This document shows, piece by piece, positions 11,470 through 36,066 of a stretch of DNA of 64,000 nt. Each line of letters begins with the position of its first letter. Position 1 is the stretch's first letter. Made by a program: the position numbers and the translations under genes. The notes beneath the pieces were generated by a model. The model made no database searches, was not told the origin of the DNA, and saw only the letters and a program-made list of their open reading frames with translations. Source of the stretch: Shouchella hunanensis (GTDB lineage: Bacteria > Bacillota > Bacilli > Bacillales > Bacillaceae_D); assembly GCF_028735875.1 (NCBI RefSeq), contig NZ_CP117834.1, positions 62,001-126,000 of the forward strand, read 5' to 3'.

Positions 11470-11498
11470 ATGTACCCTCCTCTAAGTTCTTGACCGAT

Positions 11499-11540
11499 AA
11501 AAAGGACAGAGCAAACACATCTGTGTCTGCTCTGTCCTTT
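11499..11540 (-). terminator. Intrinsic terminator of the glycine riboswitch
   Basis: On the minus strand the RNA contains AGGACAGAGCAGACACA pairing with TGTGTTTGCTCTGTCCTT and ending in T's, just after aptamer 2. The 5' arm overlaps the closing segment of the second aptamer (CAAAGGACAGAG), which is the usual switching geometry. Confidence 0.85.
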
Positions 11541-11725: not shown

Positions 11726-11875
11726 TTCAATTCATTTACCGTTTAAAAAGCTGGAATTCGTACATACTAAAAAGAGTCTGTTAACACTTCTAATCCTACC
11801 AACGGACAAATAAATAAGCAACAGATTTTTCTTAATTTCAGCATATTTTTTCTTAATATAAAGGATGTGAACCCG

Positions 11876-21229: not shown

Positions 21230-21529
21230 TCACCTTCTTTTTTTTCGATTTCTTGCTGTTTTTGTTTTTGGAATGGTTTCTGGTGGTTGTTTTCGAATCC
21301 ATTTTAGAAACTTTCTTAGTTTATCATCTTGTTTTAAATCAAGAATGGTTGTTAAGCGTGAAGCAAGTTCTTTATTTGTATACAGCGCATGAATCTGTTT
21401 GTGGCAAGGGATACAAAGATTCGCCGTTTCTGCAAACGTCCCTCCTTCATCCTTTGGTAGTAAATGGTGAACTGTTGTGGTGACATTTTCTCGCTCACAC
21501 AGTTCACAACAGCCTTGTTTCTTATTCAT
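21230..21529 (-). CDS. HNH endonuclease family protein, YisB-like
   Basis: A 99-residue HNH nuclease-fold protein. Two CxxC zinc pairs (CELC and CIPC) frame the VHHLLP and HKQIHALYT segments, which give the beta-beta-alpha metal site. Similar to B. subtilis YisB, especially around TANLCIPCHKQIHALY. The ATG at 21529 follows AAAGGAGGG; 39 residues of open frame upstream are discarded. The substrate is unknown; it is not next to a restriction system. Confidence 0.82.
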   Translation of the reverse strand: MNKKQGCCELCERENVTTTVHHLLPKDEGGTFAETANLCIPCHKQIHALYTNKELASRLTTILDLKQDDKLRKFLKWIRKQPPETIPKTKTARNRKKRR

Positions 21530-21604
21530 CCCTACACCCTCCTTTATCTTTATATTGAAGTCTACCCTTTTCATTGGTACGATAAAAGCTTGAAAGGAGC
21601 GCTC

Positions 21605-23893
21605 ATGCATACAGCACGATATTTTAATCAAACCGTTAACATACACACACTTGAACGATCTGAGTGGAATAAACTGTACTTAGCTAGTAAGCAAGGTAAA
21701 CTGACTTGCATTCACTGTAAAGCTCCTTTACGCATGGCACTATCCATTCACAAAAAACCGAGCTTTATTCACCCTGATCCAGTAAATGAGGCTTGTTATA
21801 CAGAGACCAGTTCAACCATGACTGTTCAAAAAGCGCGGACACAACCAAGAGAGTTTTCCGGCTTTCGCTTACCAACGAATAGCCAAATTGAAAAGGAACC
21901 AACAAATGAAACGGATTGGAAAGAGCCAGAACCATTAGTTGTCCGACATCGTTTTCAGGAACCAAAACGCTCCGACCGCCCAGACGATTCTTACCGCCGC
22001 ACTCTTGAAGATGCATCGCTGTCGTTTAATGATGATCAATGGCGCAGCATAAAAAAAACAGACGGTCCTTTGCTTATTCTTGCAGGAGCTGGTAGCGGAA
22101 AGACACGTGTCATAACAGCAAGAGCTGCGTATATGATCACAGAGCTTGACATTCCGATTAATCGCATCGCGCTCGTTACCTTTACATCGAAAGCAGCACA
22201 GGAAATGAAGGAACGCATGCTACTTTATCCTGGTATTACGAGGGAAATTGGCGAAAAAATACTCATTCGGACATTTCATAGCTTGTTTTTACAAATGCTT
22301 AAACACCATCAGAGCGAGCAATGGCACCACTCACGATTAATTCAATCCCCTCATTACCTTGTTAAACAAATAGGTATGACCCTTGGACTTGATGAAAATG
22401 AATTTGCATACGATTCAGCGGTTACGCAAATAAGTTATTGGAAGAATCATATGATACCCCCTGAACAGGTACAAGCCAAAACCGCTTTTGAGGAAAAAGT
22501 AAAAACGATTTACCAAGAATATGAACAACAAAAGCAGTTTCAGCACTATTATGATTTCGACGATATCTTATTAGGTTGTTTAGAGCTCTTAAAAGAGAAC
22601 TCAGCTTTACTTGAAAAATACCAAGAACGATTTTCTTACTTATCTGTTGATGAATTTCAAGATATTAATTTACTTCAATTTGAAATTGTGCGTTTGCTCT
22701 CTCAAAAGAACAATAACCTTTGCGTAGTCGGTGATGATGATCAATCCATCTATGCCTTTCGTGGGAGTGATCCGTCCTTTATTCAGTCGTTTCAATCATA
22801 TTATCCATCGGCAACGGTTGTGACGCTTGAAGATAATTACCGTTCAACCCATGAAATTATTGGGACAGCCAACACGGTTATACAAAAAAACCAGCAACGA
22901 TTATCGAAAACCTTACGAGCTCAAGTAACAAAAATGGACAATACACCAACAATTTTTTATCCCTACAATGAGGAAGAGGAAGCATCAATTATTGTTGAGG
23001 AAATTGCTTCTACATTGGCAACCGGTCAATCTATCGAGCAAATTGCCGTTCTTTTTCGAACTAGCGCCGGGGTACGTGCGCTAACAGAGCGTCTCATTGA
23101 TGCCGACATTCCCTTTCAATTAGATCAAACAGCTGGGACGTTTTATGATAAGCCAATCGTTCAGAAAGCACTTGCTTTTTTAAGGCTTTCTCTTTATGAG
23201 GATCATGATGAAGCCGCTCCTTATGCTTTACAAGCTTTATTCTTAAAGCAAGATAAACAACAAGAATTAATCGCTATCAAGCAAAAACGAGCTTGTACAT
23301 TACTTGAAGCATTCCCATTTTTAACCGGAACACAACCGTTTCAGAAAAAAAAGTTGCAACAGCTACCAGAGTTATGTAGAAAATTAACGACACTCACTCC
23401 TATTCAAGCGCTTGAAAGTATTGAACAAGATATCGGTTTTAAAGATACACTAAAGAAACAAGCTCAAGAAGGAAATCAGCTGGACAAAGGAAGCGATTCG
23501 TTTAGACAATTAAAAGCATTAGCCAGGCAACATGATACTGTTGCTTCCTTTCTCCATTATATTGACTGTATGACGGTAAAAATAAAAGAACATAAGTACC
23601 GTCCCCATTCTTCAGGTGTACAGTTATTAACCATTCATCGTGCAAAAGGGCTAGAGTTTGAGCATGTCTATATTATTGGCTGTGTGGATCGGTCTCTTCC
23701 ACATGATTATGCCTTAGACGCTTTAAAAGAAGGAGACGAAGCCCCTCTACAAGAAGAGCGACGCTTGTTGTATGTAGCGATGACACGAGCAAAATCACGC
23801 TTGTACCTTTCTTCTCCTCTTTATTATTTTGAGAATAGAAGCTTCGCGTCTCGCTTCTTGCTTCCTGTATTAAAAAACCGCTCACGGTCGTGA
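21605..23893 (+). CDS. yjcD: UvrD/PcrA-like ATP-dependent DNA helicase, YjcD type
   Basis: A 762-residue superfamily 1A helicase. The N-terminal 100 residues carry a CIHC element resembling the CoiA N-terminus and a disordered acidic linker. Then come Walker A (LAGAGSGKTRV), SVDEFQDIN (motif II), VVGDDDQSIYAFRGS (motif III), LLTIHRAKGLEFEHV (motif V) and LLYVAMTRAKSRL (motif VI). It is divergent from the HNH gene with a 75-base gap. The AAAGGAG site fixes ATG 21605; the 47 residues of extra open frame overlap the HNH gene. Probably a repair or recombination helicase. Confidence 0.9.
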   Translation: MHTARYFNQTVNIHTLERSEWNKLYLASKQGKLTCIHCKAPLRMALSIHKKPSFIHPDPVNEACYTETSSTMTVQKARTQPREFSGFRLPTNSQIEKEPTNETDWKEPEPLVVRHRFQEPKRSDRPDDSYRRTLEDASLSFNDDQWRSIKKTDGPLLILAGAGSGKTRVITARAAYMITELDIPINRIALVTFTSKAAQEMKERMLLYPGITREIGEKILIRTFHSLFLQMLKHHQSEQWHHSRLIQSPHYLVKQIGMTLGLDENEFAYDSAVTQISYWKNHMIPPEQVQAKTAFEEKVKTIYQEYEQQKQFQHYYDFDDILLGCLELLKENSALLEKYQERFSYLSVDEFQDINLLQFEIVRLLSQKNNNLCVVGDDDQSIYAFRGSDPSFIQSFQSYYPSATVVTLEDNYRSTHEIIGTANTVIQKNQQRLSKTLRAQVTKMDNTPTIFYPYNEEEEASIIVEEIASTLATGQSIEQIAVLFRTSAGVRALTERLIDADIPFQLDQTAGTFYDKPIVQKALAFLRLSLYEDHDEAAPYALQALFLKQDKQQELIAIKQKRACTLLEAFPFLTGTQPFQKKKLQQLPELCRKLTTLTPIQALESIEQDIGFKDTLKKQAQEGNQLDKGSDSFRQLKALARQHDTVASFLHYIDCMTVKIKEHKYRPHSSGVQLLTIHRAKGLEFEHVYIIGCVDRSLPHDYALDALKEGDEAPLQEERRLLYVAMTRAKSRLYLSSPLYYFENRSFASRFLLPVLKNRSRS

Positions 23894-23968: not shown

Positions 23969-25357
23969 ATGACAATGAAGCGACTAACAAGCATTATTAT
24001 GTTAACGTACAATCAGTGGTCTTTAACGAAGCTATGCTTAGATAGTTTGTTTAAGCATACTGATCAGTCAATGATTGAAGTAATCGTAATTGACAATGGA
24101 TCCACTGACGAAACCAAAAGAGAATTGGAAAAAGAAGAACGTATTACGTTTATTGCCAACGACCATAATAAAGGATTTGCAGGCGCATGTAACCAGGGAG
24201 CCGATCTAGCAAAAGGAGATGAGCTGCTCTTTTTAAACAACGATACAATTGTTACCCCGCAGTGGCTCACTCGTATGCAACAAACACTAGACTCGGATCA
24301 GCATATTGATTTAGTTGGACCGGTTAGTAATTACGTTAGCGGAGAACAGCTTATTCAAGATCCATACCATTCTCTTGATGACATTGATGAGTACGCTAAG
24401 AAAAGACGCGATGTATACGACAAACAAAAGAAATACGTCATGCGTCTCGTCGGCTTTTGTTTACTCGTTCGTAAAGCTGTTTTTGATCAAATCGGTGGTT
24501 TTGATGAACGGTTTGCCATTGGCTCCTTTGAAGATGATGATTTTTGCTTACGAGCCGTTCAATCTGGTTCTCGATTAGCGATTGCCCTTGATGCCCATGT
24601 GCATCATCACGGTCATGCTACGTTCACCGGTAGCCCAGAAATTAATTTCAATCAAACTTACGCAGAAAATTACGCACGCTATGTAAATAAATGGGGCACC
24701 GATCTCTCTTATTTTATGCACGGAAGACCAGAACTTGTTCAAGTCGTGCCTCAAGATGCAAAACGTATTTTAGATATTGGATGCGGCGCAGGTGCAACTG
24801 GTCTACAGTTACTAAATCGGCAGCAATGTAAGCTGGTTGGCATAGAAGGAAATGAAAAGATGGCACAGATTGCTCGTAGCTATTATGAGTCCGTCTATAC
24901 CATCAACATTGATGAAACGATCCCTCCACTGGAAACAGAATCCTTTGACGTTCTTTTATTCGCTGACGTTTTAGAACATTTAAAAGACCCTTGGAAAACG
25001 ATTCAAGAATATAGCAAGTTTCTAAAAAAAGACGGAGCTATTATTGCGAGTATCCCAAATATTGCTCATGCTGAAGCACTAATTCCACTTTTAATGGGCC
25101 GTTTTGATTATCGTGATGCCGGTATACTAGACCGCACACATTTACGCTTTTTCACACCACAAACATTGTATACGCTGTTTCCAACTGACCAATTCTCTAT
25201 TCGCCAACAATTTTCCACACACATTCCTGTCGATGCTAAAATAAGTACATTTTTTCATGAAGTTAGTTTATTAGGCAAAAAGTTCGATTTAGAGTTAAGT
25301 GGATTGTCAGACTTAATCAAAACCTACCAATCAGTCGTTTTGTTTAAGAAGTTGTAA
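23969..25357 (+). CDS. Glycosyltransferase family 2 fused to a SAM methyltransferase
   Basis: A 462-residue two-domain protein. Residues 1-245 form a GT2 (GT-A fold) transferase: SIIMLTYNQ, VIDNGSTDET, the nucleotide-sugar motif LFLNNDT and GSFEDDDFCLR. Residues 260-462 form a class I methyltransferase with motif I ILDIGCGAGATG and the later FADVLEHLKDPW. The likely role is adding a sugar and then methylating it on a cell- or spore-surface glycan; acceptor and sugar are unknown. ATG at 23969 or 23975 follows AAAGGTAGGA. Its last 27 bases overlap the opposing GT2-TPR gene. First gene of the accessory glycan region. Confidence 0.85.
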   Translation: MTMKRLTSIIMLTYNQWSLTKLCLDSLFKHTDQSMIEVIVIDNGSTDETKRELEKEERITFIANDHNKGFAGACNQGADLAKGDELLFLNNDTIVTPQWLTRMQQTLDSDQHIDLVGPVSNYVSGEQLIQDPYHSLDDIDEYAKKRRDVYDKQKKYVMRLVGFCLLVRKAVFDQIGGFDERFAIGSFEDDDFCLRAVQSGSRLAIALDAHVHHHGHATFTGSPEINFNQTYAENYARYVNKWGTDLSYFMHGRPELVQVVPQDAKRILDIGCGAGATGLQLLNRQQCKLVGIEGNEKMAQIARSYYESVYTINIDETIPPLETESFDVLLFADVLEHLKDPWKTIQEYSKFLKKDGAIIASIPNIAHAEALIPLLMGRFDYRDAGILDRTHLRFFTPQTLYTLFPTDQFSIRQQFSTHIPVDAKISTFFHEVSLLGKKFDLELSGLSDLIKTYQSVVLFKKL

Positions 25358-26419
25358 TTGTTCTTTAAAATAAGAACGGTTGTATTCAATTCGGCTATCA
25401 TCTGGAAGAAACGTTGCTGCCTGTTCATTGTGCTCGTTTGCTTTTTCTGTAAACCCAAGCTTGTCGTAACATACCGCTAGTTGAAGATTTGGAATCCATG
25501 TTTCGCATGCGACATTTTGGAAGTAAGCATTTTCTTCTTTATTACGTATCGCCATTTCATACCAGAATACCGCCTCTGAAAATGCTTGCTTCTCCATAAA
25601 GGAGTGACCAATACGGCAGCACGTTTCTGGTTTTGGTTTTCCGTATTCTAATGCTCGAAATGTCCAATCTTTTGCTACTTTCGGCAAGCCTAGGTTTATA
25701 TAGCAATCAGCTAATTTGTTACAAGAACGAATGAGGTCTTCTGACCAACCTTTATCCGTTTTAATGAATTTCAAATAATACTCAACAGCATCTTCAAACC
25801 GACGATGATCTGTTAACTCATTCGCGTAATAAAGCAAGTCTCTTGGAGTAAACGCTTCCCCTGACGCTTTCATCCCTTCATAAATATCAAGGTTGCGTGT
25901 TAAATCGTGGCCATCATCAGCCGATAAGTGGGTTACAGCAATATCACTATGATGCAATTCTCCGTATACTTCTAAATATTCGTGAACCGCTCCGTGCCAG
26001 ACAAAGCCACGTTCTTTCTTTACGATTCGAAATCGTCTGATACTCGATGTCACCCCTCCATTCCCATCAAAAGCTAAATGATAATCCATTGATACAGCAT
26101 CAACCTTTTCTTCCAGGGTAGACTTTAGTAATTTAAGCTTTTGACGGTCCTCTTCCTTTAAAATATCATCCGCATCTAGCCACATGACATACGGTTTCGT
26201 TGCATAAGAGAACGCTTTGTTTCGTGCTTTAGCGAAGTGATTTACCCAAGTAAAGTCATACACTTTATCTGTAAACGAAGTAGCAATCTCTTTTGTCCGA
26301 TCAGTAGAACCTGTATCTAGAATAATAATCTCATCTACTACCTCTTTCACGCTGGACAAGCAGCGCTCTAACACGGCTTCTTCGTTTTTCACAATTAAGC
26401 ATAAACTGATTTCAATCAT
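25331..26419 (-). CDS. Family 2 glycosyltransferase with C-terminal TPR-like region
   Basis: A 362-residue protein. Residues 1-110 are a GT2 domain (SLCLIVKNEEAVL, LDTGSTDRT, NHFAKARNKAF, MWLDADD). From about 200 onward the chain is helical with tetratricopeptide spacing (aromatic/Gly-Ala repeats such as CNKLADCYINLGLPKVA and CCRIGHSFMEKQAF). This layout is common in SunS-like and Bacillus surface glycan transferases, where the TPRs bind the acceptor. ATG at 26419 follows GGAGGTG. It is 23 bases downstream of the next transferase on the same strand, forming an operon. Confidence 0.83.
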   Translation of the reverse strand: MIEISLCLIVKNEEAVLERCLSSVKEVVDEIIILDTGSTDRTKEIATSFTDKVYDFTWVNHFAKARNKAFSYATKPYVMWLDADDILKEEDRQKLKLLKSTLEEKVDAVSMDYHLAFDGNGGVTSSIRRFRIVKKERGFVWHGAVHEYLEVYGELHHSDIAVTHLSADDGHDLTRNLDIYEGMKASGEAFTPRDLLYYANELTDHRRFEDAVEYYLKFIKTDKGWSEDLIRSCNKLADCYINLGLPKVAKDWTFRALEYGKPKPETCCRIGHSFMEKQAFSEAVFWYEMAIRNKEENAYFQNVACETWIPNLQLAVCYDKLGFTEKANEHNEQAATFLPDDSRIEYNRSYFKEQLQLLKQND

Positions 26420-26442
26420 CCGAAACACCTCCACAGCCCATT

Positions 26443-28080
26443 TTATGTGTCAGCATGCTGGGATGTGCCTGTATACACATAGGATAAAGATAGCTTTCTA
26501 CTGTCTACCTTAAGTCTAGATTCTTCGATTGCCACATTTTGGAGTAGCTCTCGTCTCCTTCCCTCATCACTAAAGCCACCTCGAACGGTTTTTTTTGTAA
26601 ATAGATAACGAAAGCCGAGAAGCAACTCACGTATAAGTTCATCCTCAAACATATGAAGAAATGGCTGCACATTTACCTCTGGCCCAGCAAACATTGATAC
26701 GTCTTCAAGTAAAAGGTCAATCTGCAATCTTTCAGGTATGCCAACTTGTTGTGCCTTCATTTGCGGCAAAAGAAACGGCGGTAGAAGCAGGCTTGATAGA
26801 TGCGCACTTGCTGTAAGATTTAACATGGTTACTAACTGCTGGCCAGAAAAAAACACTGACATGTCTTCGAGTGAAGTAAACAACTGCTCCTGGTTATTGT
26901 AAATAAGTGCATCTGGGTGAATCATCGCTTGTTCAACAAACTGAGCGATATGGTAAACGGTTAATGGTATACAGCCGTGATGAAAGAGACAATAATCTCC
27001 TCGCGAAAACCGCTGACCAACTTTAAAAGCAGGCCCCATTTTTTCAATTTGTTGAAGACGGAGGTAAGGTTGTTTCATTTGCTCTAATTGCCAGCATAGT
27101 ACAGAGCATTCTCCTGAAACAACTGGAATCACTTCTACCGTTTCATTGTGCTGTAATTGAGCAATCGTTGTTACAAGTGAAGTGTCGTAATGATCATCAA
27201 TATAGACGACAAAAGACACAGGTTTTTTTGGCTGATCTTTGCACCACGCCTCTCTGCATTGTTCAAGCTCTTGCTCATCCCACACTACTTGTATTTCTAC
27301 GAGATCACGATTACCGTGATGAATTACGTAATGAAGGGCTTCTAACATATCACCTTGCATACGCTGCATCGCAGTAGAAAGCTGACCGCTTCCTTTTGCT
27401 ACATGATTCTTTCGAGGTTTATTCATTTTTAAGACATCAATTGTAAAAGGGACTGTTACGTTCTTTGTTTTCTGTAAAGCCATACTGTTGGCAAGCATCG
27501 GATTTACCAATGCAGAAACGCCGATTTCTTGAATTAAGTGATGGCTCATTGTATGTGGAATGGTTAAGAGATTTTCTGCTCGAAGGTCTTTTCGACCCTG
27601 GATGTGATTTAAAAAATAGCGTCCAGCTGAAATCGTATCTGCTTTATCAAAATGGGTAATCCAATCAATAGAGTTTAAACTTAAATCTTCTCCGTTTTCA
27701 ATGGCTACTATAAAAGGGATGTATTGCTCTGCCTGTATAACAATATCGGCGTCTGTAAACAAATAAATATCTGCATTTGCTGCTTCTGCACCGATAGCAC
27801 GACCTACATCATTTCCTAGCGGGTAATGAAATTGAATGACTTTAGCACCTTTTCCACTGGCAACAGCGGCTGTCTGGTCCTTCGAGCCATTTACAACAAC
27901 AATCAATTCATCAGGCATGAGCCGATTGATTTCATCAAGCACTGCGCCCAACGTATCTTCTTCATTCATAGCCGGCACAATAACAGCTAATCGATAGGCA
28001 TGATTCCGCTGGACTGGCTGTTTTTGCAGGGGGTGCTCTTTCTTAACACGGTTTTGATTTTTGCGCTGGAAATATTGCAT
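26443..28080 (-). CDS. Large glycosyltransferase with GT2 N-terminal domain
   Basis: A 545-residue protein. After a basic 28-residue lead, residues 29-140 carry a GT2 fold (LAVIVPAMNEEDTLG, ELIVVVNGSKDQT, YLFTDADIVI). The second half begins near 270 with a weaker GT2-like start (SFVVYIDDHYDTSLVTTI) but lacks a clear DxD, so it may be a degenerate second transferase or acceptor-binding domain. Good AAAGGAAGG site. First gene of a two-gene unit with the GT2-TPR gene. A spore-surface role is inferred from the locus only. Confidence 0.75.
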   Translation of the reverse strand: MQYFQRKNQNRVKKEHPLQKQPVQRNHAYRLAVIVPAMNEEDTLGAVLDEINRLMPDELIVVVNGSKDQTAAVASGKGAKVIQFHYPLGNDVGRAIGAEAANADIYLFTDADIVIQAEQYIPFIVAIENGEDLSLNSIDWITHFDKADTISAGRYFLNHIQGRKDLRAENLLTIPHTMSHHLIQEIGVSALVNPMLANSMALQKTKNVTVPFTIDVLKMNKPRKNHVAKGSGQLSTAMQRMQGDMLEALHYVIHHGNRDLVEIQVVWDEQELEQCREAWCKDQPKKPVSFVVYIDDHYDTSLVTTIAQLQHNETVEVIPVVSGECSVLCWQLEQMKQPYLRLQQIEKMGPAFKVGQRFSRGDYCLFHHGCIPLTVYHIAQFVEQAMIHPDALIYNNQEQLFTSLEDMSVFFSGQQLVTMLNLTASAHLSSLLLPPFLLPQMKAQQVGIPERLQIDLLLEDVSMFAGPEVNVQPFLHMFEDELIRELLLGFRYLFTKKTVRGGFSDEGRRRELLQNVAIEESRLKVDSRKLSLSYVYTGTSQHADT

Positions 28081-28168
28081 TTGCCGCCTTCCTTTCTCTT
28101 TTTTGCATCATGAATCGCCTCTTTCGTTCATAAGATGATAGAAATGCCAGCTGAGAGGACTGAGTAAA

Positions 28169-28579
28169 ATGACACAATCCACTTCACGGCTAACACCCGT
28201 ACAGCTTCATCAACGTCTCATCCATGCAGAATCAGAAATTGTCCGCTTAAATAAAGAACTAGAGCGTTATAAAAATGATTATCACTACAACATGATTGAT
28301 GAATTGCTTGCAGAAAATCAAGACCTTCTTGAAGAGTGCGCGCGATTAAAAGAACAGGCATCGGATAACAAGTCGCCTAAAACAAGCCAACAAACGGAAA
28401 GTGTTGAACCCGCACCTGAAGTTGAAAAGAAACAGGATGAACAGCAGCACCCTCATTCACCAGATGAATCCGTCTTCTTTTCTAGTAAAGCCAGTTTACC
28501 GAAGCAACAAGATACGCAAGAAGATTCAAGTCAAACTAGTTGGTTCGCTCGAAATATGAAAACTAGATCAAAGAAATAA
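28169..28579 (+). CDS. Coiled-coil protein of unknown function
   Basis: A 136-residue soluble protein. Residues 8-70 form a heptad-patterned coiled coil (LHQRLIHAESEIVRLNKELERY and beyond); the rest is polar, acidic and low-complexity with a basic end. Ribosome site GAGAGGACTGAG before the ATG. Transcribed alone, opposite to the transferases, and overlapping the epimerase gene tail by 12 bases. No family recognised; a structural or scaffold role on the spore surface is a guess. Confidence 0.65.
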   Translation: MTQSTSRLTPVQLHQRLIHAESEIVRLNKELERYKNDYHYNMIDELLAENQDLLEECARLKEQASDNKSPKTSQQTESVEPAPEVEKKQDEQQHPHSPDESVFFSSKASLPKQQDTQEDSSQTSWFARNMKTRSKK

Positions 28580-29524
28580 GCGATAATACCGAATAGTGTC
28601 TTTTAGCCCATCTGTTAAGGAAACAGATGCCGGATAGTGAAGTATCTTTTCCATCTTTTCCGTACAAGGTACGCGCTTCCTCATATCTTCAAAGCCACTC
28701 TTATAAACCTGTTTATATGGTATAAACTGGATATCCGATTGGCTATTTGTGAGCTGAATAATCGACTGTGCAAGTTGTAAAATGGATATTTCCGTGGAAG
28801 ACCCAATATTAATCACTTCACCATTGCAATGATGGCCAACTGTTCGACTCGTCGCTTCCACTGTATCTTTCACATACGTGAAGCACCTTGTTTGCTTACC
28901 ATCGCCATGAACAGAAAGGGGCTCATTTCGTAAAGCAGCTGAAATGAAAATTGGAATGACCCCTCCATACAAACCCGACTTTGCCCTCGGTCCATACGCA
29001 TTAAAATAGCGTAAAATTGTCACCGGCAATCCTTTCTTTGCAGCGGCCAAAAACATGTGCTCTTCTAACGCTTTAACTGTCGCATAGCACCAGCGATGGG
29101 TACTCGTTGCTCCCACTAACCGATCACCATCTTCTTTATAGGGCAAGTTCTCACTTTTTCCGTACACTTCAGAAGTGGATGCAAAAACGACTTTCGTCTT
29201 GGAGTTGACTGCTTTCTTCAACACGACTTGCGCAGGGATTAAGTTTCCTGCAATAATTTCATCTGGTTCCTCTACACAACGGCGAACACTAAGTGAAGCA
29301 GCTAAATGAAACACGACATCAGCCCAGTTAATCCAGCGCTCGGTTACATCAGCATCTTCTACCCGACTTTTAATAAAAAAGAACCGTTTTGAGCGAACGA
29401 ATTCTTCCACTAGACGTGTATCTTCCACTTGATCCATGACGCATACCGTGTGCCCTTCCTGAAGTAGCTTTTCTGTTAAGTGAGAACCAATAAACCCCAG
29501 TCCCCCTGTCACCAATATGTTCAT
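28568..29524 (-). CDS. NAD-dependent sugar-nucleotide epimerase/dehydratase
   Basis: A 318-residue extended SDR enzyme. The NAD-binding motif TGGLGFIGSH is at the N-terminus; the catalytic Ser/Tyr/Lys are in ASTSEVYG and CYATVKALEEH; RYFNAYGPR and the GDGKQTRCFTYVKD loop are typical of UDP-sugar 4-epimerases and UDP-glucuronate decarboxylases. Product cannot be set by sequence alone, but pairing with the dehydrogenase gene directly upstream suggests it acts on a UDP-uronic acid. GGAGGAG site. Ten bases separate the two genes. Confidence 0.83.
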   Translation of the reverse strand: MNILVTGGLGFIGSHLTEKLLQEGHTVCVMDQVEDTRLVEEFVRSKRFFFIKSRVEDADVTERWINWADVVFHLAASLSVRRCVEEPDEIIAGNLIPAQVVLKKAVNSKTKVVFASTSEVYGKSENLPYKEDGDRLVGATSTHRWCYATVKALEEHMFLAAAKKGLPVTILRYFNAYGPRAKSGLYGGVIPIFISAALRNEPLSVHGDGKQTRCFTYVKDTVEATSRTVGHHCNGEVINIGSSTEISILQLAQSIIQLTNSQSDIQFIPYKQVYKSGFEDMRKRVPCTEKMEKILHYPASVSLTDGLKDTIRYYRLFL

Positions 29525-29533
29525 ACGCTCCTC

Positions 29534-30787
29534 CTATAACTTGTGAATATGCGGACCTTCGACGCTCAAACATTGTTTTGTATCAAAAATGCATTTACTG
29601 TGCTGTACAACCTTGTTATAATCAAGATCATCATGATCGGTCAGTAAAACAACAAGATCAAAGACAGCCAACGTATCTTCTGCGATCGTAATAGATTGAT
29701 ACGCTTGATCGCACAAGGTGTAAACCGGTACAAAAGGATCGTGGTAAGCAATAGTAAAGCCTGCTTGAATGAGTCGCTCCGCCACTCCTATCGATTTAGA
29801 CTCTCTCGTATCCCTAGTATTCTTTTTGTAAGAAAGCCCAATTAATAAAATGGCAGCCTCTTCCACCGAATGAATGAGGGACCGTATTCGCTTGACAATA
29901 TAATCCGGCTGCTCATCATTAACCGCTTTAGCTAGATCAATAAACCGTGTTGTCGCTCCAACTTGATTAACCTTCCATTTAAAATAAAGAGGATCAACTG
30001 GTATACAGTGCCCCCCTACACCTGGTCCAGGACGATATGCTGAAGATCCATATGGCTTCGTTTCAGCAGTGAGTAAGACTTCTTCAACGTTAATCTCTAA
30101 TTCGTAACAGGCACGCGCCATTTCATTCACAAACGATAGATTAATAAAACGCTGGGTGTTTTCAAACATCTTCACCGCTTCTGCCACTCTTGTTGAACTG
30201 ACAGGCACGAGCTCTTTAAATATGGTTTCATAAACATCTTTCACTCTCTGTAAACATTCCGAAGTCATGCCACTTATTACTTTTGGAACATCGGTTAAAT
30301 GGAATTGTTTATTCCCTGGGTCGATTCGTTCTGGTGAATAGCCAACAAAAAACGTTTTTCCGATAAGAAATCCTTCTCTTTCAATAAGAGGCACAACGAT
30401 TTCTTCTGTTGTTCCTGGAAACGTAGAACTTTCCAATATAAGAAGCTGACCTTGTTGCAAGTGTGGCGCTAATTGTTTTAAAGCGGTTTGCACGTAGCAT
30501 AAATTGGGAGTCCCGGTACTAGCTAATGGTGTAGGGACACACAAAATAATAACCGTCGCTTGTTTTGCTTCTTCACACTGGTCTGTTACTGTGAACGATT
30601 CGTTCATTAACGCCTCAATCGCTTTATCGTCCACTTCGTTTATATACGAGCGTTGTCGATGTAAGTCATGTACCTTCCCTTGATCTTGATCAATGCCAAT
30701 GACACGGTGCCCTCTACGACTACATTCAATGGCTAAAGGCAGCCCAACGTATCCTAAGCCAACAATGGCTATATTCTGTTTCTTCAT
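29534..30787 (-). CDS. Nucleotide-sugar dehydrogenase (UDP-GlcNAc/UDP-ManNAc dehydrogenase type)
   Basis: A 417-residue UDP-glucose/GDP-mannose dehydrogenase family enzyme that oxidises a UDP-hexose C6 to the uronic acid in two steps. It has N-terminal Rossmann motif AIVGLGYVGLPLA, LCVPTPL, SPERIDPG, the central AEAVKMFENTQRFINLSFVNE helix and catalytic Cys in GVGGHCIPVDPLYF. The ENTQR and GGHCIPVDP variants fit the WecC/WbpA (N-acetylhexosamine) group rather than TuaD. The start is either ATG 30787 or GTG 30796; spacing from AGAGAGG is poor for both. Likely operon with the epimerase. Confidence 0.87.
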   Translation of the reverse strand: MKKQNIAIVGLGYVGLPLAIECSRRGHRVIGIDQDQGKVHDLHRQRSYINEVDDKAIEALMNESFTVTDQCEEAKQATVIILCVPTPLASTGTPNLCYVQTALKQLAPHLQQGQLLILESSTFPGTTEEIVVPLIEREGFLIGKTFFVGYSPERIDPGNKQFHLTDVPKVISGMTSECLQRVKDVYETIFKELVPVSSTRVAEAVKMFENTQRFINLSFVNEMARACYELEINVEEVLLTAETKPYGSSAYRPGPGVGGHCIPVDPLYFKWKVNQVGATTRFIDLAKAVNDEQPDYIVKRIRSLIHSVEEAAILLIGLSYKKNTRDTRESKSIGVAERLIQAGFTIAYHDPFVPVYTLCDQAYQSITIAEDTLAVFDLVVLLTDHDDLDYNKVVQHSKCIFDTKQCLSVEGPHIHKL

Positions 30788-30941
30788 GTCACACAAACCT
30801 CTCTTATTTATCTTTCTGGTACATTTGCCTAATGATCTACACTATTCACCTCAAAAGCAAAACGTTCAGTAAAGCCCTTTTTTAGCGAAAAAAGCTTTTC
30901 ATAAAGAAACGATTTTAGAGAACTGGAGAGCCGAGAGAAAC

Positions 30942-30985
30942 AAAAAACCGTTTATCTCTATAGAATAGAAACAAACGGTTTTTCT
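30942..30985 (-). terminator. Terminator after the 36-residue CCG peptide gene
   Basis: AAAAACCGTTT / AAACGGTTTTT arms, with an inner TCTAT/ATAGA pairing in the loop, begin just after the small gene stop. Confidence 0.75.
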
Positions 30986-30987
30986 CA

Positions 30988-31098
30988 TTAAGGTCTTTTC
31001 TTACCACAACAGCCAGTGTTGTGTTTCTTATCTGCTGCTGGCTTAGCGACTGGTCTTTGTGTCACGAAATACCCATGTGGATTCTTTTTATATTGCAT
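30988..31098 (-). CDS. 36-residue basic peptide with a CCG motif, sigma-K-type promoter
   Basis: Reading ATG (31098-31096) to TAA gives 36 residues, starting MQYKKNPHGYFVTQRP and ending GCCGKKRP. The evidence for a real gene is context: AAGGAGA ribosome site seven bases ahead, a sigma-K consensus promoter (31135-31162), and a strong terminator right after the stop. Composition is basic with one Cys pair, as in some small coat or exosporium proteins that cross-link. No family recognised. Confidence 0.72.
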   Translation of the reverse strand: MQYKKNPHGYFVTQRPVAKPAADKKHNTGCCGKKRP

Positions 31099-31134
31099 TA
31101 TAATCTCTCCTTATCTAGAAAAATGAACGCCTTC

Positions 31135-31162
31135 TATTCTATGCAAAGAAAAGAAAGTTTGT
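31135..31162 (-). promoter_or_regulatory. Sigma-K-like promoter for the 36-residue peptide gene
   Basis: On the minus strand: AC (31162-31161), 17-base spacer, CATAGAATA (31143-31135), an exact fit to the published AC-N17-CATANNNTA pattern for mother-cell sigma-K. It lies 36 bases before the ATG. Confidence 0.6.
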
Positions 31163-31183
31163 TTAAGGTTTAAAAATAAGCGC

Positions 31184-31210
31184 ACATATTTAGACAACAG
31201 TCATACTATA
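31184..31210 (+). promoter_or_regulatory. Sigma-K-like promoter for the cysteine-rich SPOCS-like gene
   Basis: AC (31184-31185), 16-base spacer, CATACTATA (31202-31210), 80 bases before the ATG at 31291. Divergent partner of the promoter at 31135-31162; two hits back to back make chance less likely. Confidence 0.6.
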
Positions 31211-31290
31211 CAGTAGTCCGAACGCCTTTAGTTGCTTTGTTATTTTTAACAACTGCCTACTAACGGTTAAAATTAAAAGGAGGTCCCTCC

Positions 31291-31992
31291 ATGAGTCACG
31301 ATCATGAAAAACACAATGTTTGCATTAGTGTCCCGAAGGTCTTTGATTGGGTGACACGTCAAGTTGATTTACCAACACTTAGCTTTAGAGAGCCTGAACT
31401 TTCAACGCTCTTCCCTGATTGCACAGGTCCAACACCGGGACCAGGCTCACTATGCGCTTTACTACAGGCATTCCCGAACTACCAAACGGTTTGCCGTGTG
31501 TTAGAAAATTCACTTCTAACAAACGAAGTAACAAACCCATTCGGCCGTACAGAAGTTGAAGTTACGTTACCGAACGGTGAAGAAGTATGCTTAGAAAAAG
31601 TAAAAGTATTAGCGAAAGGATTAATCGAGGTTGATATTCTAGATGAGCTTGGGAACCTAATCTGTACCTCAGATCCAATTGATTTCGCAACGATTCAAAC
31701 GTTTTATCTTTGTGCTCCTGAGGGCACATCTGTAGATGCATTTATTTCTGCAGGTCAGTGCGACGCGGAAGTAGTTTGTGATGCCAACTTCTCCCAACTC
31801 GATATTTCATTCTCGTTCTGCTTAGATGTTCACGTATTTGCTGATGTTCGCTTAGAAATTGAAGCAGCTTACTGTAAGCCAAGACATGAGTTCCCAGTAT
31901 CTGATGTCATTTGCAGCGAGAACAAATTCCCACCTCAGTGCCCGGTTGTATTCCCTGGCAAAGGGTTCGGAAAGAAATCGCCTGTTAACTAA
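31291..31992 (+). CDS. Cysteine-rich SPOCS-like (DUF3794-like) protein, probable spore surface protein
   Basis: A 233-residue protein with 13 cysteines and no signal peptide. It opens with the segment KVFDWVTRQVDLP. Residues 90-195 have the alternating beta pattern of SPOCS/DUF3794 domains (VKVLAKGLIEVDILDE, then a DPIDF loop, then VFADVRLEIEA). The C-terminus is Pro/Cys/Lys-rich. Such domains occur in spore-associated proteins such as SipL; the many Cys and the sigma-K-like promoter suggest a cross-linked coat or exosporium component. AAAGGAGG site. The assignment to DUF3794 is from pattern only. Confidence 0.6.
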   Translation: MSHDHEKHNVCISVPKVFDWVTRQVDLPTLSFREPELSTLFPDCTGPTPGPGSLCALLQAFPNYQTVCRVLENSLLTNEVTNPFGRTEVEVTLPNGEEVCLEKVKVLAKGLIEVDILDELGNLICTSDPIDFATIQTFYLCAPEGTSVDAFISAGQCDAEVVCDANFSQLDISFSFCLDVHVFADVRLEIEAAYCKPRHEFPVSDVICSENKFPPQCPVVFPGKGFGKKSPVN

Positions 31993-32000
31993 ACAAGCGT

Positions 32001-32030
32001 AGGTCGCACTCGAATAGTGCGGCTTTTTTT
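32001..32030 (+). terminator. Terminator after the SPOCS-like gene
   Basis: GTCGCACT / AGTGCGGC stem with CGAAT loop followed by seven T's. Confidence 0.75.
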
Positions 32031-32134
32031 CTGTTCTTACGTTCCAAATGGACAGATGCACAGCTTTTTCTTCTTATTTTCGAAACTGTCTCATAGACTG
32101 TAGCAAGGGAAATTAAAAAAGTGAGGCGGTTTAA

Positions 32135-32863
32135 TTGACGGAAAAACGAATGAATACGTTAGATAAAAAAATCATTCAACTTAATCAAAAAATTCTTCAC
32201 TATCGTTCAGAGGTAGTAAAACAAGATCGACTATTAACAGATCAACGTAAACGAATTCATGACCAAGATGCGGTGATTGAAGAATTAACACTTCGTTTAG
32301 AGGAATTAGCGAATGATCCGGCTGTTTCGGAAGCGATCTCCTCACCAAAAGTAGAGGATCCCCCTTCGTTAGGGGAAAATGACATTCAAGTAGACTCGTT
32401 TTTTACGTATGCAATTATGGCCCCCTTTGAAACAAATGAAGAGGAGCCCTTCGTCATTAAAGGACATATGATCATTGAAAACCGAGGAGCATCTCCTTTA
32501 GTTAATCCAGTAATTTGTTTAAGTTTCAATAAACCCGAACTCGCCAATTTATCAGGAAGGATCGAACGTTCAAAGAACAATCTGCAGCACTATTCCGTAT
32601 CTCGAGAAGGCGTAACAGATACGTGGAAATTTGTTGAGGAACAAGCCGATAAGCACGCAAAACAAACAGGACAATTCTGGCTATCACCTCCTATTGACGA
32701 AATCCCACCACGATCATCTATAACCTTTTCCGACTTTGAAGTGGTGATTCCAGCAGTTAAAAAAAACACTTCCCTTTCTTTACAAATTACAGGGTTTGTA
32801 TATGGAGCGGATTTAACTGAAGGAAAAGCGTCTTTAAATACGATTGCCTTAACCGTGTCATGA
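32135..32863 (+). CDS. Coiled-coil plus beta-domain protein of unknown function
   Basis: A 242-residue protein. Residues 6-70 form a coiled coil (LDKKIIQLNQKILHYRSEVVKQ pattern and on). Residues 85-242 look like a beta-sandwich (FFTYAIMAPFE, FVIKGHMIIENRG, SFNKPELANLS, FVYGADLTEG). TTG start after GAGGCGG. Its TGA overlaps the ATG of the CgeB-like transferase, so the two are coupled; it may be the partner or substrate of that enzyme. No family recognised. A CATAGACTG box near 32091 is a poor sigma-K match. Confidence 0.65.
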   Translation: MTEKRMNTLDKKIIQLNQKILHYRSEVVKQDRLLTDQRKRIHDQDAVIEELTLRLEELANDPAVSEAISSPKVEDPPSLGENDIQVDSFFTYAIMAPFETNEEEPFVIKGHMIIENRGASPLVNPVICLSFNKPELANLSGRIERSKNNLQHYSVSREGVTDTWKFVEEQADKHAKQTGQFWLSPPIDEIPPRSSITFSDFEVVIPAVKKNTSLSLQITGFVYGADLTEGKASLNTIALTVS

Positions 32864-33801
32864 ATCTTTTATTCCTTACATCTCCTTTTGGTGGGGTCTA
32901 TCCTTTTTTTGAAAACGCATTAAAAAAAGGATTAACGGTATTTGCTACTGTCTACTCCCAATCTTATACTGCCTGTAACGGTCAAACACTGGTCCGATTT
33001 TGTCGACAAAACCAGGTCGATTGGATCGTAACATTTAATGGTTATTTTTTTTCAGCTAAAGACAAAGACCTTTTTCATGCTAATCAGCTTCCTCCATTAG
33101 CAGTTTGGTTAACGGAAGAGCCTTATTACACTTCATCTTCGCTCGATGTGCTTACATTCGCTACAGTAGCATGGTCTGTCGAATCTGCGTCCGCTGCATT
33201 TTACAACAATCATTCTACACCCATTTCTGTCACTTATGTACCCCTTGGTTACGATGATCAATCGTTTTATCCTGCAAAGAACAACGGTGTTCCACACTAT
33301 GATCTTACGTTTGTTGGCTACCCATATGAAAGTCGAATGACTTGGTTAAAGCAAATTGACCAGCACTTTTCGTTAAAGGTGGCCGTTGTTGGACCTTGGC
33401 AGAAGGATGACCTTCCATCTAAAGCCGACCACATCGCCACCTGGTTATCACCTGAAAAGGTAGGCAGGCTCTATCGCCAATCGCGCGTTGTCTTAAATAG
33501 TTATCGAACTGGAAACAAAGACATTGAAGCTAGAAGTATAAACAATCGTACGTTTGAAATTGCCGCTACAGCAACATGTCAACTTAGTGAATACCGAAGT
33601 GGAATTCGAGATTTTTTTTCACCAACGGACATTGCCACATTTACGAATTCAGAGAATTTGCGAACCCAACTTCAGAAATTATTAGAAAACGACGATATTC
33701 GTACTCAGTACGCCCTTTCAAGCTACCAAAAAGTTGCAGAGCATACGTTTTACCATCGGGCTCAGCAACTTTATAAAGAGCTTCACTCTTACTACTCGTA
33801 A
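32860..33801 (+). CDS. CgeB-like glycosyltransferase
   Basis: A 313-residue GT-B type transferase related to B. subtilis CgeB, a late-sporulation protein linked to spore-surface glycosylation. The N-terminal half has WIVTFNGYFF and LAVWLTEEPYY; the C-terminal half has YDLTFVGYPYESR, LNSYRTGNKDIEARSINNRTFEIAAT and EYRSGIRDFF, the family signature around the nucleotide-sugar site. It starts by ATGA overlap with the upstream gene. Its 3' end overlaps the opposing GT4 gene by 10 bases within a strong terminator hairpin. Confidence 0.8.
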   Translation: MNLLFLTSPFGGVYPFFENALKKGLTVFATVYSQSYTACNGQTLVRFCRQNQVDWIVTFNGYFFSAKDKDLFHANQLPPLAVWLTEEPYYTSSSLDVLTFATVAWSVESASAAFYNNHSTPISVTYVPLGYDDQSFYPAKNNGVPHYDLTFVGYPYESRMTWLKQIDQHFSLKVAVVGPWQKDDLPSKADHIATWLSPEKVGRLYRQSRVVLNSYRTGNKDIEARSINNRTFEIAATATCQLSEYRSGIRDFFSPTDIATFTNSENLRTQLQKLLENDDIRTQYALSSYQKVAEHTFYHRAQQLYKELHSYYS

Positions 33802-33814
33802 GAGTGAAGCTCTT
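33776..33814. terminator. Shared terminator in the overlapping ends of two glycosyltransferase genes
   Basis: Perfect 17-bp stem (33776-33792 and 33798-33814) around a TACTC loop. Both stop codons lie inside it, so coding sequence of each gene doubles as terminator for the other. Confidence 0.85.
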
Positions 33815-34850
33815 CTTTTGTTAAGCATCTTTTTTTGAGCTGTTCATAAAGAGCTGCTCCTGAGACCTCTTCCACGACCCATCCTCTCCCAATGGTTTTA
33901 ACAGCTTCTGCTTGTGCACCTAAATTGAAAACAAGAACAGGATAACCTAACTTAATTGCTTCGTGTGTGGTGTAAGAAAAGGTTTCTGGAACGACGGACG
34001 GGATACAAATCAAATCAATTTGATCTTCGATTAACAGTGCTTCTAAATTTTCTCCATTATAAGGACCACGCTCAATGATTCTTCTTCTCTGCTTTAATGA
34101 TGATGCGAGATCCCCATAGGAATAGAGTGCTAACGGAAGAGGGGCTTGATCAAGGTGATCTAGCAGTTGAGCCACAACATCCTCTCCCTTATGTAAAAAG
34201 AGGTTGCCCAGAAAGCCAAGACGAAGTTGCTTATGGTTCTGTTGGTCATGCTTTCGAATTTGTTTTTGTTTCAAATGGGGCAAGGAGTGGGGAATAACAG
34301 TAATTTGTAAATCAGGGAAATAGGTTAGGTACATCTCTTTTGTCGAGACACTAGGGGCAACAATGGCAGATGCTTTTTTATAAAGCGAGTGGTAGCGATT
34401 TCTCCATTCATCGACCGTAAAAGAAGGACCTCCTGCTTTTACCAATATAGATCTAGTTGCTGTTTCTGTTATGCAACCTTCGCAAACTGTACTATCTTTT
34501 TCCATTCCACAATAGCGACGGTTATTATTAATAAAAAAAACATTTGGACAAACCCCAAAAAAATCATGAAGACATACCGTATACGGACAACCAAGCACTT
34601 GCAACAGCATCTCAACGTCACCAAATGGAAAGCCCCATAAATGATGAAGCTCTATTTTTTTAATGGAGAGATTTTTTAATCGATTGATAAGCGGATAAAT
34701 GGATGAGTAGGTTTCCTTTTTAGCATTGCTCCATACAAGTCGGAACTGGCGCGCAGTTGCAACGCATTCAATTGTCATATCATCTAATCGTGTTTGGATA
34801 TACTGACTAACGCCCCCGCCACCGTTATGGTGCATAAGAAGGGTGTACAT
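33792..34850 (-). CDS. Family 4-type (GT-B) glycosyltransferase
   Basis: A 352-residue GT-B enzyme. The N-terminal half has LHHLWGFPFGDVEM, CLHDFFGVCPNVFFI and a cysteine cluster (YCGMEK...CEGCIT) often found in transferases acting on surface polymers. The C-terminal half has LRLGFLGNLFLHKGEDVV and the donor-site segment SVVPETFSYTTHEAIKLG (E-x7-E motif). The start ATG lies three bases after the YjcA-like gene stop, so they form an operon. Sugar and acceptor unknown. Confidence 0.83.
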   Translation of the reverse strand: MYTLLMHHNGGGGVSQYIQTRLDDMTIECVATARQFRLVWSNAKKETYSSIYPLINRLKNLSIKKIELHHLWGFPFGDVEMLLQVLGCPYTVCLHDFFGVCPNVFFINNNRRYCGMEKDSTVCEGCITETATRSILVKAGGPSFTVDEWRNRYHSLYKKASAIVAPSVSTKEMYLTYFPDLQITVIPHSLPHLKQKQIRKHDQQNHKQLRLGFLGNLFLHKGEDVVAQLLDHLDQAPLPLALYSYGDLASSLKQRRRIIERGPYNGENLEALLIEDQIDLICIPSVVPETFSYTTHEAIKLGYPVLVFNLGAQAEAVKTIGRGWVVEEVSGAALYEQLKKRCLTKEELHSYE

Positions 34851-34853
34851 TTG

Positions 34854-35180
34854 TTAAATCCTTCTTGAGACGGACTCAATAATAGCGGCTCCATACGCAA
34901 TGCTGAGACAAAGAAAAATCGGAAAAAAGAAGCTTGGCAGGCACCAAAAGCCAATAAAAAAGAATACTGCTACCCACACACTTGTACACCAATAACACGA
35001 CAGTAATGAGCCAATAAACTTACGTAAACCTTTCCCTTTCGGGTATGCATACAAGGTTCCATCTTCTTCTTTCAACTGAATAAAAGAATTGCGAAACCAT
35101 TCCATAATATCGTCGGTGACAAAGAGCCTTGTCATTCTTGCTGTTGCTAATAATAAAATCAACCATTCAAACCACGTCAT
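34854..35180 (-). CDS. DUF1360 membrane protein, YjcA-like sporulation protein
   Basis: A 108-residue membrane protein. Helices lie near residues 3-20 and 62-100; family motifs are LLLATARMTRLFVTDD and LLSCYWCTSVWVAVFFF. DUF1360 proteins include B. subtilis YjcA, a sporulation protein encoded between the crust genes and yjcD, which is the equivalent position here. ATG at 35180 is eight bases after GAGGAGG; a longer frame of 22 residues is rejected. A CATATACT box upstream resembles a sigma-E -10 without a good -35. Confidence 0.75.
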   Translation of the reverse strand: MTWFEWLILLLATARMTRLFVTDDIMEWFRNSFIQLKEEDGTLYAYPKGKGLRKFIGSLLSCYWCTSVWVAVFFFIGFWCLPSFFFPIFLCLSIAYGAAIIESVSRRI

Positions 35181-35286: not shown

Positions 35287-36066
35287 TTATACAAGAGATA
35301 GCGTGCTATAACCGCCATCTACATGAATGATTTCACCTGTAATTCCACGAGATAAATCGCTAGCAAGAAAGAGGGCTGTGTCGCCAACCTCTTCTTGTGT
35401 CGTCGTTTTACGTAATGGTGCTTTTTCTTCAATCTCTTTTAGAACATCATTAAAGCCGCCAATTCCTTTTGCAGCAAGGGTACGAATCGGTCCAGCTGAA
35501 ATGGCATTAACACGAATACCATCTTTTCCTAAATCATTTGCTAAATATTTTACACTTGCATCAAGTGCTGCTTTCGCTACGCCCATCACATTGTAGTTTT
35601 TCACAACGCGTTCGCCACCTAAGTACGTTAACGTCATCACGCTTCCACCTTCTGTCATAAGCGGACGTGCTGCTTTACAGACAGCTGTTAGTGAATAGGC
35701 ACTAATATTTTGAGCTAAAAGGTAGCCATCACGGGTAACGTTTAAATACTCGCCTTCTAATTCCTCTTTATTGGCGAAAGCAATACAGTGCGCAACACCA
35801 GAAATGGTTCCAACTTGTTCTTTAATGTCGTTAAACGTTGCATCAATTTCTTCGTCACTCGAAATGTCACAAGGAAGAACGAGATGCTCTCCTTCAAGAG
35901 ATTCAGCTAATGTTTTTACATTTTTTTCTAATCGTTCTCCTGCGTATGTAAAAACGAGTTTTGCACCGGCTTCGTCTAGTGATCGTGCAATTGCCCATGC
36001 AATGCTTCGCTTGTTCGCTACACCCATTACTACATATGTACGTCCAGTTAAATCAATTGATTTCAT
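35287..36066 (-). CDS. fabI: Enoyl-[acyl-carrier-protein] reductase FabI
   Basis: A 259-residue NADH-dependent enoyl-ACP reductase, the last step of each fatty-acid elongation round and the triclosan target. It has the SDR pattern of FabI: VMGVANKRSIAWAIA, LPCDISSDEEI, the catalytic Tyr/Lys arrangement YNVMGVAKAALD, and IRVNAISAGPIRTLAA. GGAGG site. A FapR operator lies at 36085-36104. It is 54 bases downstream of yjbO on the same strand. It marks the end of the accessory region. Confidence 0.97.
   Translation of the reverse strand: MKSIDLTGRTYVVMGVANKRSIAWAIARSLDEAGAKLVFTYAGERLEKNVKTLAESLEGEHLVLPCDISSDEEIDATFNDIKEQVGTISGVAHCIAFANKEELEGEYLNVTRDGYLLAQNISAYSLTAVCKAARPLMTEGGSVMTLTYLGGERVVKNYNVMGVAKAALDASVKYLANDLGKDGIRVNAISAGPIRTLAAKGIGGFNDVLKEIEEKAPLRKTTTQEEVGDTALFLASDLSRGITGEIIHVDGGYSTLSLV

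Follow-up and report, generated by a model that had tools for sequence, protein, structure and literature searches.

The outer layers of a bacterial spore decide how it adheres, spreads and is recognized, and current models of these layers come largely from the CotZ/CotY-type shells of the Bacillus subtilis and Bacillus cereus groups. How might a spore surface be built in a genus where neither CotZ/CotY nor CotO is detected? Here we analyze a locus of Shouchella hunanensis that lies between yjcD and fabI, the interval in which B. subtilis presumably carries its crust genes in the order cotO-cotZYXWV-yjcA. The locus occupies positions 23969 to 35180 of the window, by which we mean the whole 64,000-nucleotide stretch examined (contig NZ_CP117834.1, positions 62,001 to 126,000), part of a complete 4.06-Mb genome. 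We read it, with some confidence, as an outer spore-shell scaffold locus with exchangeable glycan cassettes; the spores of related bacteria probably share one protein frame and differ in the sugar coat on it.

Several described systems resemble parts of this locus. In B. megaterium (Priestia), BMQ_0737 fused to green fluorescent protein (GFP) was found in the outer spore layers and bound anti-GFP antisera strongly, from which its authors infer an outermost position (passages of PMC4656864). Long filaments are described on the spores of B. clausii (PMC4219348, in part), and cotO and cotY/cotZ are listed among the genes of most bacilli (PMC3533761, in part). Enzymes of spore-surface glycans, with a CgeB-type domain among them, are encoded in B. 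subtilis by sps, ytdA-ytcABC, yfnHGFED and cgeAB-cgeCDE (PMC7439481, in part).

Gene content of the yjcD–fabI slot

The open reading frames (ORFs) of the window were read together with Pfam and NCBIfam profile searches of its proteins. They place in the slot five glycosyltransferases, a nucleoside diphosphate (NDP)-sugar dehydrogenase and a short-chain dehydrogenase/reductase (SDR). Two coiled-coil proteins, a CCG peptide of 36 aa, a protein with 13 Cys and a YjcA-like gene complete the set. An original prediction, made from the letters of the window, had proposed a spore-surface glycan locus here, and its inventory between fabI and a UvrD-type helicase is borne out for the five glycosyltransferases (by Pfam), the dehydrogenase, the SDR, the CCG peptide and the YjcA-like gene. 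One glycosyltransferase is indeed CgeB-like (PF13524) and another fused to a methyltransferase (PF00535 with Methyltransf_23). The names yjcD, yjcA and fabI follow that prediction, and we take them to apply. The features are as follows (GT2 and GT4, glycosyltransferase families 2 and 4; TPR, tetratricopeptide repeat; HexNAc, N-acetylhexosamine).

21464..23893, + strand: yjcD-like UvrD-type helicase (ORF); left anchor, outside the system, with same-position homologues in many loci
23969..25357, + strand: GT2 and methyltransferase fusion, 462 aa (PF00535 100 bits, Methyltransf_23 60 bits)
25331..26434, - strand: GT2 with TPR repeats, 367 aa (PF00535 83 bits, plus TPR)
26443..28080, - strand: GT2, 545 aa (PF00535 53 bits)
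28169..28579, + strand: short coiled-coil rod, 136 aa, with an N-terminal VQLHQRLIHAESE motif and a C-terminal WFARN tag
28568..29524, - strand: SDR nucleotide-sugar epimerase/decarboxylase, 318 aa (PF01370 158 bits; TSEVYG and YxxxK read directly)
29534..30796, - strand: UDP-HexNAc-type nucleotide-sugar dehydrogenase, 420 aa (TIGR03026 416 bits, cut-off 190)
30942..30984, no strand: terminator-like hairpin in the gap between CCG peptide and dehydrogenase (inverted repeat read directly)
30988..31098, - strand: CCG peptide, 36 aa, 2 Cys (translation)
31135..31162, - strand: sigma-K-like promoter of the CCG peptide, AC-N-CATAGAATA (matrix score 10.7)
31184..31210, + strand: sigma-K-like promoter of the BMQ_0737 gene, AC-N-CATACTATA
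31291..31992, + strand: BMQ_0737-family morphogenetic spore coat protein, 233 aa, 13 Cys (NF052457 221.9 bits, cut-off 71)
32135..32863, + strand: partner, 242 aa, with an N-terminal LQQK-IH coiled coil and a C-terminal domain without fold assignment
32860..33801, + strand: CgeB-like glycosyltransferase (PF13524 90.3 bits, cut-off 25); its start overlaps the partner stop
33792..34850, - strand: GT4-type glycosyltransferase, 352 aa, directly behind yjcA (PF00534 37 bits, PF13692 32 bits)
34854..35180, - strand: YjcA-like gene (ORF extendable to 35246), with homologues in 69 of 92 loci
35287..36066, - strand: fabI (ORF); right anchor, outside the system, a conserved neighbor

Glycosyltransferase genes are concentrated in this slot. 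Its 11.2 kb hold 3 of the 13 PF00535 matches over cut-off in the genome, where 0.036 would be expected (P ~7e-6 for a fixed interval, ~0.003 allowing for the choice of interval genome-wide). The slot genes are also under purifying selection: ratios of nonsynonymous to synonymous substitution (dN/dS) against S. oshimensis run from 0.01 to 0.30 across 15 genes (the CCG peptide not included), with BMQ_0737 at 0.02, near fabI at 0.01; against two more distant species dS is mostly saturated. Matches to the CCG peptide by tblastn share 92, 86 and 54% identity in S. oshimensis (G032), G037 and S. xiaoxiensis (G040), respectively (G and L numbers are our labels for genomes and loci).

A conserved shell protein, partner and rod

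The 13-Cys protein had been predicted to be SPOCS-like; it belongs instead to the BMQ_0737 family of spore coat proteins, scoring threefold above the curated cut-off of NF052457, and PF12673 is unmatched at E 1. Across the family, 1 of 52 members matched the SPOCS domain (PF12673; E 0.043), the window protein not being that member. The BMQ_0737 family occurs in 34 of the 41 genomes of the window's taxonomic family and in 0 of 14 control genomes, B. subtilis among them. A search for relatives of solved structure returned none up to E 10.

How constant are the surroundings of this gene? We compared 92 BMQ_0737 loci from Bacillaceae and relatives, made up of 78 named loci (the distinct ones among the best 80 of 96 confirmed stretches) and 14 others; all were selected for holding BMQ_0737, and several share a species or a genome. 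In 86 of them a homologue of the partner gene follows BMQ_0737 in the same direction within 1.5 kb, and three of the six loci without it (L078, L096, L122) end at most 0.6 kb from the BMQ_0737 match. The CgeB-like gene comes after the partner gene in 35/92 loci. The partner itself matched no family over cut-off in Pfam/NCBIfam-type profile searches. Tandem BMQ_0737 paralogues flank the partner gene on both sides in Alkalihalobacterium elongatum (L111, 8134-13453), Alkalihalobacillus sp. BA299 (L113, 8884-14400) and Anaerobacillus alkalilacustris (L127, 9980-13178).

The partner and the 136-aa rod have an N-terminal motif in common, approximately hQLQQ[KR]hIHhxSE (hhalign E 1.3e-7). A profile of the motif-bearing N terminus, whose seeds were drawn from the same loci so that detection is not independent, finds a rod in 76 of the 92 loci; 8 of these matches are weak (E 0.0017 to 0.023), and 58 of the 76 rods end in a WFxRN-like tag. 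Rod lengths vary from 87 to 1286 aa, or from 106 to 1286 excluding the weak matches, values that are rough because the longest possible starts were used and some loci end early. The window rod is among the short ones. It is separated from BMQ_0737 by 2.7 kb, in which lie the genes of the SDR, the dehydrogenase and the CCG peptide; across the set, a rod is found upstream of a BMQ_0737 gene in 71 loci and is divergent from it in 53. The LQQK-IH regular expression had no match in 759,924 six-frame residues of control DNA, and the rod family profile scores E 7e-25 for the equal-length copy in S. miscanthi AK13 (L069). Six rods compared with NCBIfam gave SMC-like or other coiled-coil matches far under cut-off, or none. 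Homology of the rod to CotO was considered and rejected (hhalign probability 0.0 against the cluster containing the Pfam-CotO member L085:17362-17775). The coiled-coil proteins of the original prediction are present, with the added feature that both are conserved parts of the locus and share a motif.

Sigma-K-like promoters of the scaffold

A strict sigma-K-like pattern stands 18 to 84 nt ahead of the start of 87 of 105 BMQ_0737 genes. The same pattern was found on the opposite strand in 21 of 105 cases and was absent before fabI (39 genes), yjcD (31), rluD (25) and ppnK (23). The consensus built from these sites (gCACA, ~16 nt, CATAcTATA) agrees with the published sigma-K -35/-10 layout (PMC517825, in part). 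Within the window, the BMQ_0737 site is very strong, with no equal score among 758,442 control sites, close relatives of it being in the training set; the CCG-peptide site is moderate, its score of 10.7 having a background rate of 1.8e-5 per site. The predicted sigma-K-like promoters at the center of the locus are recovered before these two genes. Sigma-K control of all glycan genes, sought by pattern and by matrix, was not found. A lone matrix score of 14.2 within the dehydrogenase gene, before the SDR, was given no weight.

In the promoter of BMQ_0737, the -10 box together with the adjoining downstream bases (31202-31223, CATACTATACAGTAGTCCGAAC) is identical in four of five aligned Shouchella, including S. 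lonarensis, and differs by one base in G037, a conservation that exceeds the promoter's needs.

Crust genes in Shouchella

The profiles for CotZ/CotY (PF10612) and CotO (PF14153), which found their targets in the B. subtilis positive control, found neither in any of 13 Shouchella genomes. CotE is present in all 13 and CotX-type genes (PF07552) in 9. In the S. clausii group (G029; S. rhizosphaerae, G034; S. clausii, G038; S. tritolerans, G039) CotX sits within the slot itself, adjoining the rod. In G036 a contig other than that of BMQ_0737 has CotX behind yjcD, after the GT2-methyltransferase and GT2-TPR genes, and in the window genome CotX lies outside the slot (G000:C1:3839270-3839626), in a neighborhood with no obvious glycan genes, judged by eye from ORF N termini only. 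CotX was not found in S. lonarensis (G031), S. oshimensis (G032), G037 or S. xiaoxiensis (G040).

The slot looks homologous to the crust-gene slot, with intermediates. A spore-surface locus in the place of the crust genes, as had been proposed, is well supported by the spore-coat family and the outermost position of its founder, by the conserved sigma-K-like promoter and by CotX in the same slot of the S. clausii group. In Anoxybacillus (L083), a CotO-cluster ORF (19441-19836, its Pfam assignment coming from the L085 member) stands beside fabI (from 20008). A. flavithermus is said to lack cotO (PMC3533761, in part), yet the CotO cluster has a member in its locus (L097).

In S. lonarensis (L070) the fabI-ppnK and yjcD-comGA flanks are swapped around the shell genes, an inversion around the slot. 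In S. shacheensis (G035), contig 10 (L180), which is not the contig of the slot, carries a CotX gene followed by relatives of acetyltransferase, dehydrogenase, DegT aminotransferase and Gfo/Idh clusters and by glycosyltransferase-like ORFs, assigned by BLAST to clusters and not by Pfam; on those relatives, it would be a second coupling of spore-coat and amino-uronic genes.

Variable glycan cargo

Is the same glycan set found in the slot elsewhere? The full combination was recovered in 5 of the 13 Shouchella genomes, belonging to four species (G000, G030, G032 [S. oshimensis], G037 and G040 [S. xiaoxiensis]), and, among the loci examined, in those species only. More widely, what is conserved is the scaffold, the glycan cargo being variable. 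Partial sets also occur. The GT2-methyltransferase gene is also in the slots of G030, G032, G037, G040 and G033 and beside yjcD in G036; G033 retains two of the window's glycosyltransferases, as does G036 within the stretch covered; and S. lonarensis (G031) retains the dehydrogenase, CgeB-like and GT4 genes. No window glycosyltransferases were seen in S. shacheensis (G035), where the stretch stops at a contig end before yjcD.

Other genera carry other cargo. Alkalihalophilus marmarensis (L090) has a Wbp-like set side by side: a dehydrogenase, a UDP-GlcNAc 3-dehydrogenase-like gene, a DegT aminotransferase and a NeuD/PglB-type acetyltransferase, the last three under the NCBIfam cut-offs. Halalkalibacter oceani (L072) has rhamnose-type genes (RmlB and RmlD over cut-off, RmlA-like under), L102 a TuaD-like dehydrogenase under cut-off, and L085 a GalU-like gene just under it. 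SpoVAD, SpoVAC, YhcN and DUF421 clusters represent another kind of cargo. Just behind the CgeB-like gene of L116 lies a weak sulfotransferase-like gene (11069-11740, E 4e-4) whose cluster occurs in 11 loci.

From 29 hand-chosen loci came 167 cargo ORFs with a length of 150 aa or more (within 6 kb where an anchor was missing), and 100 of these were scanned. For comparison, 302 control ORFs were taken from 19 arbitrary regions in 8 genomes belonging to the window's family, and 100 of them were scanned likewise. The cargo sample contained 14 PF13524, 7 SDR (PF01370), 5 GT4, 5 GT2 and 3 dehydrogenase matches. In the first 25 families listed for the control ORFs, a limit that could conceal single matches, no glycosyltransferase family was found among the 18 with at least two members, and PF13524 had no more than one match in the 100 control ORFs (Fisher P 6e-4 for 14 versus 1).

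The window differs from S. miscanthi AK13 (G030/L069) by 61 substitutions and 4 insertions or deletions (indels) over 20.7 kb. Three indels are coding, all in AK13 glycosyltransferase genes, which are frameshifted copies of 26443-28080, 32860-33801 and 33792-34850; these could be strain variation, domestication or assembly error.

Predicted sugars

Which sugars would such a set make? Among subfamily models the dehydrogenase scores highest with WecC (233 bits), then TviB (213) and TuaD (131), and its best solved relative is Cap5O (192 bits, against 126.5 for UDP-glucose dehydrogenase); it stays below every equivalog cut-off, and its HexNAc class is a best-score assignment. YtcA is TuaD-like, and a YtcA/TuaD-type enzyme was ruled out on these scores. 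The uronic-acid-containing glycan of the original prediction is accordingly plausible but should read amino-uronic, the dehydrogenase scoring as HexNAc type. The nearest solved relatives of the SDR are UDP-glucuronate decarboxylases (UXS, 151 bits); 4,6-dehydratase models score nearly equal to ArnA, and none of the 25 NCBIfam matches listed reaches its cut-off. CgeB bears an N-terminal DUF3880 (PF12996), for which the window's CgeB-like protein has no match at E 0.1, while 9 of the 100 sampled cargo ORFs elsewhere do. Two further dehydrogenases lie outside the slot in the window genome. A plasmid search with the slot dehydrogenase returned 985 records, all below 60% identity, and was uninformative.

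A strong NeuB-type synthase was found in only two of the 13 Shouchella (G033 and G036). The best match in the window genome, at 38 bits, exceeds the Pfam cut-off of 22 and covers part of the domain only, so a legionaminic acid of the B. subtilis type is unlikely. This bears on whether the locus could be merely a rearranged copy of the B. subtilis spore glycan operons (ytdA-ytcABC, cge, sps), which PMC7439481 names as acting on crust morphology and surface, and with which it has the CgeB-like domain in common. Given the distance of the dehydrogenase from the TuaD type, the lack of a strong NeuB and the absence of BMQ_0737 from B. subtilis and the other control genomes, we consider such an origin very improbable.

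Linkage of cassette and scaffold

How firmly does the glycan cassette belong to the scaffold? Several observations weigh against a single spore-surface system. Slots of the S. clausii type (G029, G034, G038, G039) have the scaffold and none of these glycosyltransferases, as has S. clausii AKU0647 (L077), and in that group a dehydrogenase 43% identical to the window's lies at another genomic site close to other sugar genes, so the enzyme is not necessarily tied to the slot. No flippase or polymerase was among the families found in the slot, and no acceptor protein was identified there. The predicted sigma-K control does not extend convincingly to the dehydrogenase block, the three GT2 genes, the GT4 gene or the rod; across loci the strict site precedes 1 of 31 dehydrogenases, 1 of 68 SDRs, 7 of 69 yjcA genes and 6 of 75 rods. 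Given the terminator-like hairpin after the CCG peptide (same stem in S. oshimensis, other bases in G037, compared by eye), the glycan block may be transcribed from a different promoter and regulated apart from the scaffold.

The missing sigma-K-like sites, the hairpin and the related dehydrogenase elsewhere in the S. clausii group would suit a scaffold that serves the spore and glycan genes that form an independent cell-wall or exopolysaccharide cassette in a tolerant slot, as would the presence near the scaffold, in Anoxybacillus and other genera, of genes such as the SpoVAD, SpoVAC and DUF421 clusters. SpoVAD and SpoVAC are nevertheless sporulation proteins too, although unrelated to glycans. 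The CgeB-like gene overlaps the partner gene and follows it in 35 of the 92 loci; the GT4 gene comes right after yjcA, and the B. subtilis relative of yjcA is under sigma-E control (PMC517825); and the S. shacheensis CotX gene, on another contig, is likewise adjoined by Wbp-like genes. We therefore judge an independent cassette unlikely. Judged from sequence, the scaffold operon with its CgeB-like gene appears well tied to sporulation, and the rest of the cassette would be tied to it solely through position and conservation.

Under the scaffold-and-cassette reading that we favor, BMQ_0737, the LQQK partner and the CgeB-like glycosyltransferase would form a single operon that sigma-K turns on in the mother cell at a late stage of sporulation. 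The rod, having the same N-terminal motif as the partner, may be recruited to the same place and help to anchor the shell or set its spacing, in place of the CotZ/CotY/CotO morphogenetic proteins absent from the genus. The remaining genes would be the exchangeable glycan cassette. Its dehydrogenase would yield a UDP-amino-uronic acid, most likely UDP-N-acetylglucosaminuronic acid (UDP-GlcNAcA) or UDP-N-acetylmannosaminuronic acid (UDP-ManNAcA), the SDR would epimerize or decarboxylate a nucleotide sugar, and the glycosyltransferases, among them the methyltransferase fusion, would assemble and cap a glycan bound to the shell. In this model the glycan would be amino-uronic, methylated and carried on the BMQ_0737 shell. 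A bolder extension, which we hold only tentatively and think more doubtful than not, makes the slot an order-wide spore-surface variation locus with the logic of an O-antigen locus, and the rod a ruler or strut by which coat and shell are kept a set distance apart.

A genus without detectable CotZ/CotY or CotO but with a conserved set of rod, shell protein and partner suggests another way to build a shell. With glycan cassettes linked to that set, a single locus would reveal how spore glycans differ, and the range of rod lengths lends itself to a direct test of the spacing idea in editable strains; markerless editing is available for S. clausii DSM 8716 (PMC12885165).

Comparison with known systems

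In the literature searched, mostly without subscription papers and partly in excerpt, we found no description of the locus or of the rod family, which is weak evidence of novelty. For BMQ_0737 itself, the term "glycosyl" is absent from the main text of PMC4674009, and the BMQ_0737 passages of PMC4656864 mention no adjoining glycan genes, rod or partner. The B. megaterium protein is nonetheless of the same NCBIfam family as the 13-Cys protein of the window.

With the B. subtilis crust genes the locus shares its slot and a retained YjcA, and CotX is still in place in the S. clausii group; it differs in that CotZ/CotY and CotO are absent from the 13 Shouchella genomes and that CotX of the window genome lies outside the slot. 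The HexNAc dehydrogenase is common to what we take to be the Wbp-type pathway to UDP-2,3-diacetamido-uronic acid, of which the window has the dehydrogenase step and an SDR only, while A. marmarensis (L090) has a fuller set. The spore-glycan operons of B. subtilis likewise encode spore-surface glycan enzymes with a CgeB-type domain. Compared with them, the window genome has no strong legionaminic synthase, and the window itself carries a dehydrogenase of the HexNAc type and has its glycan and shell-protein genes intermixed.

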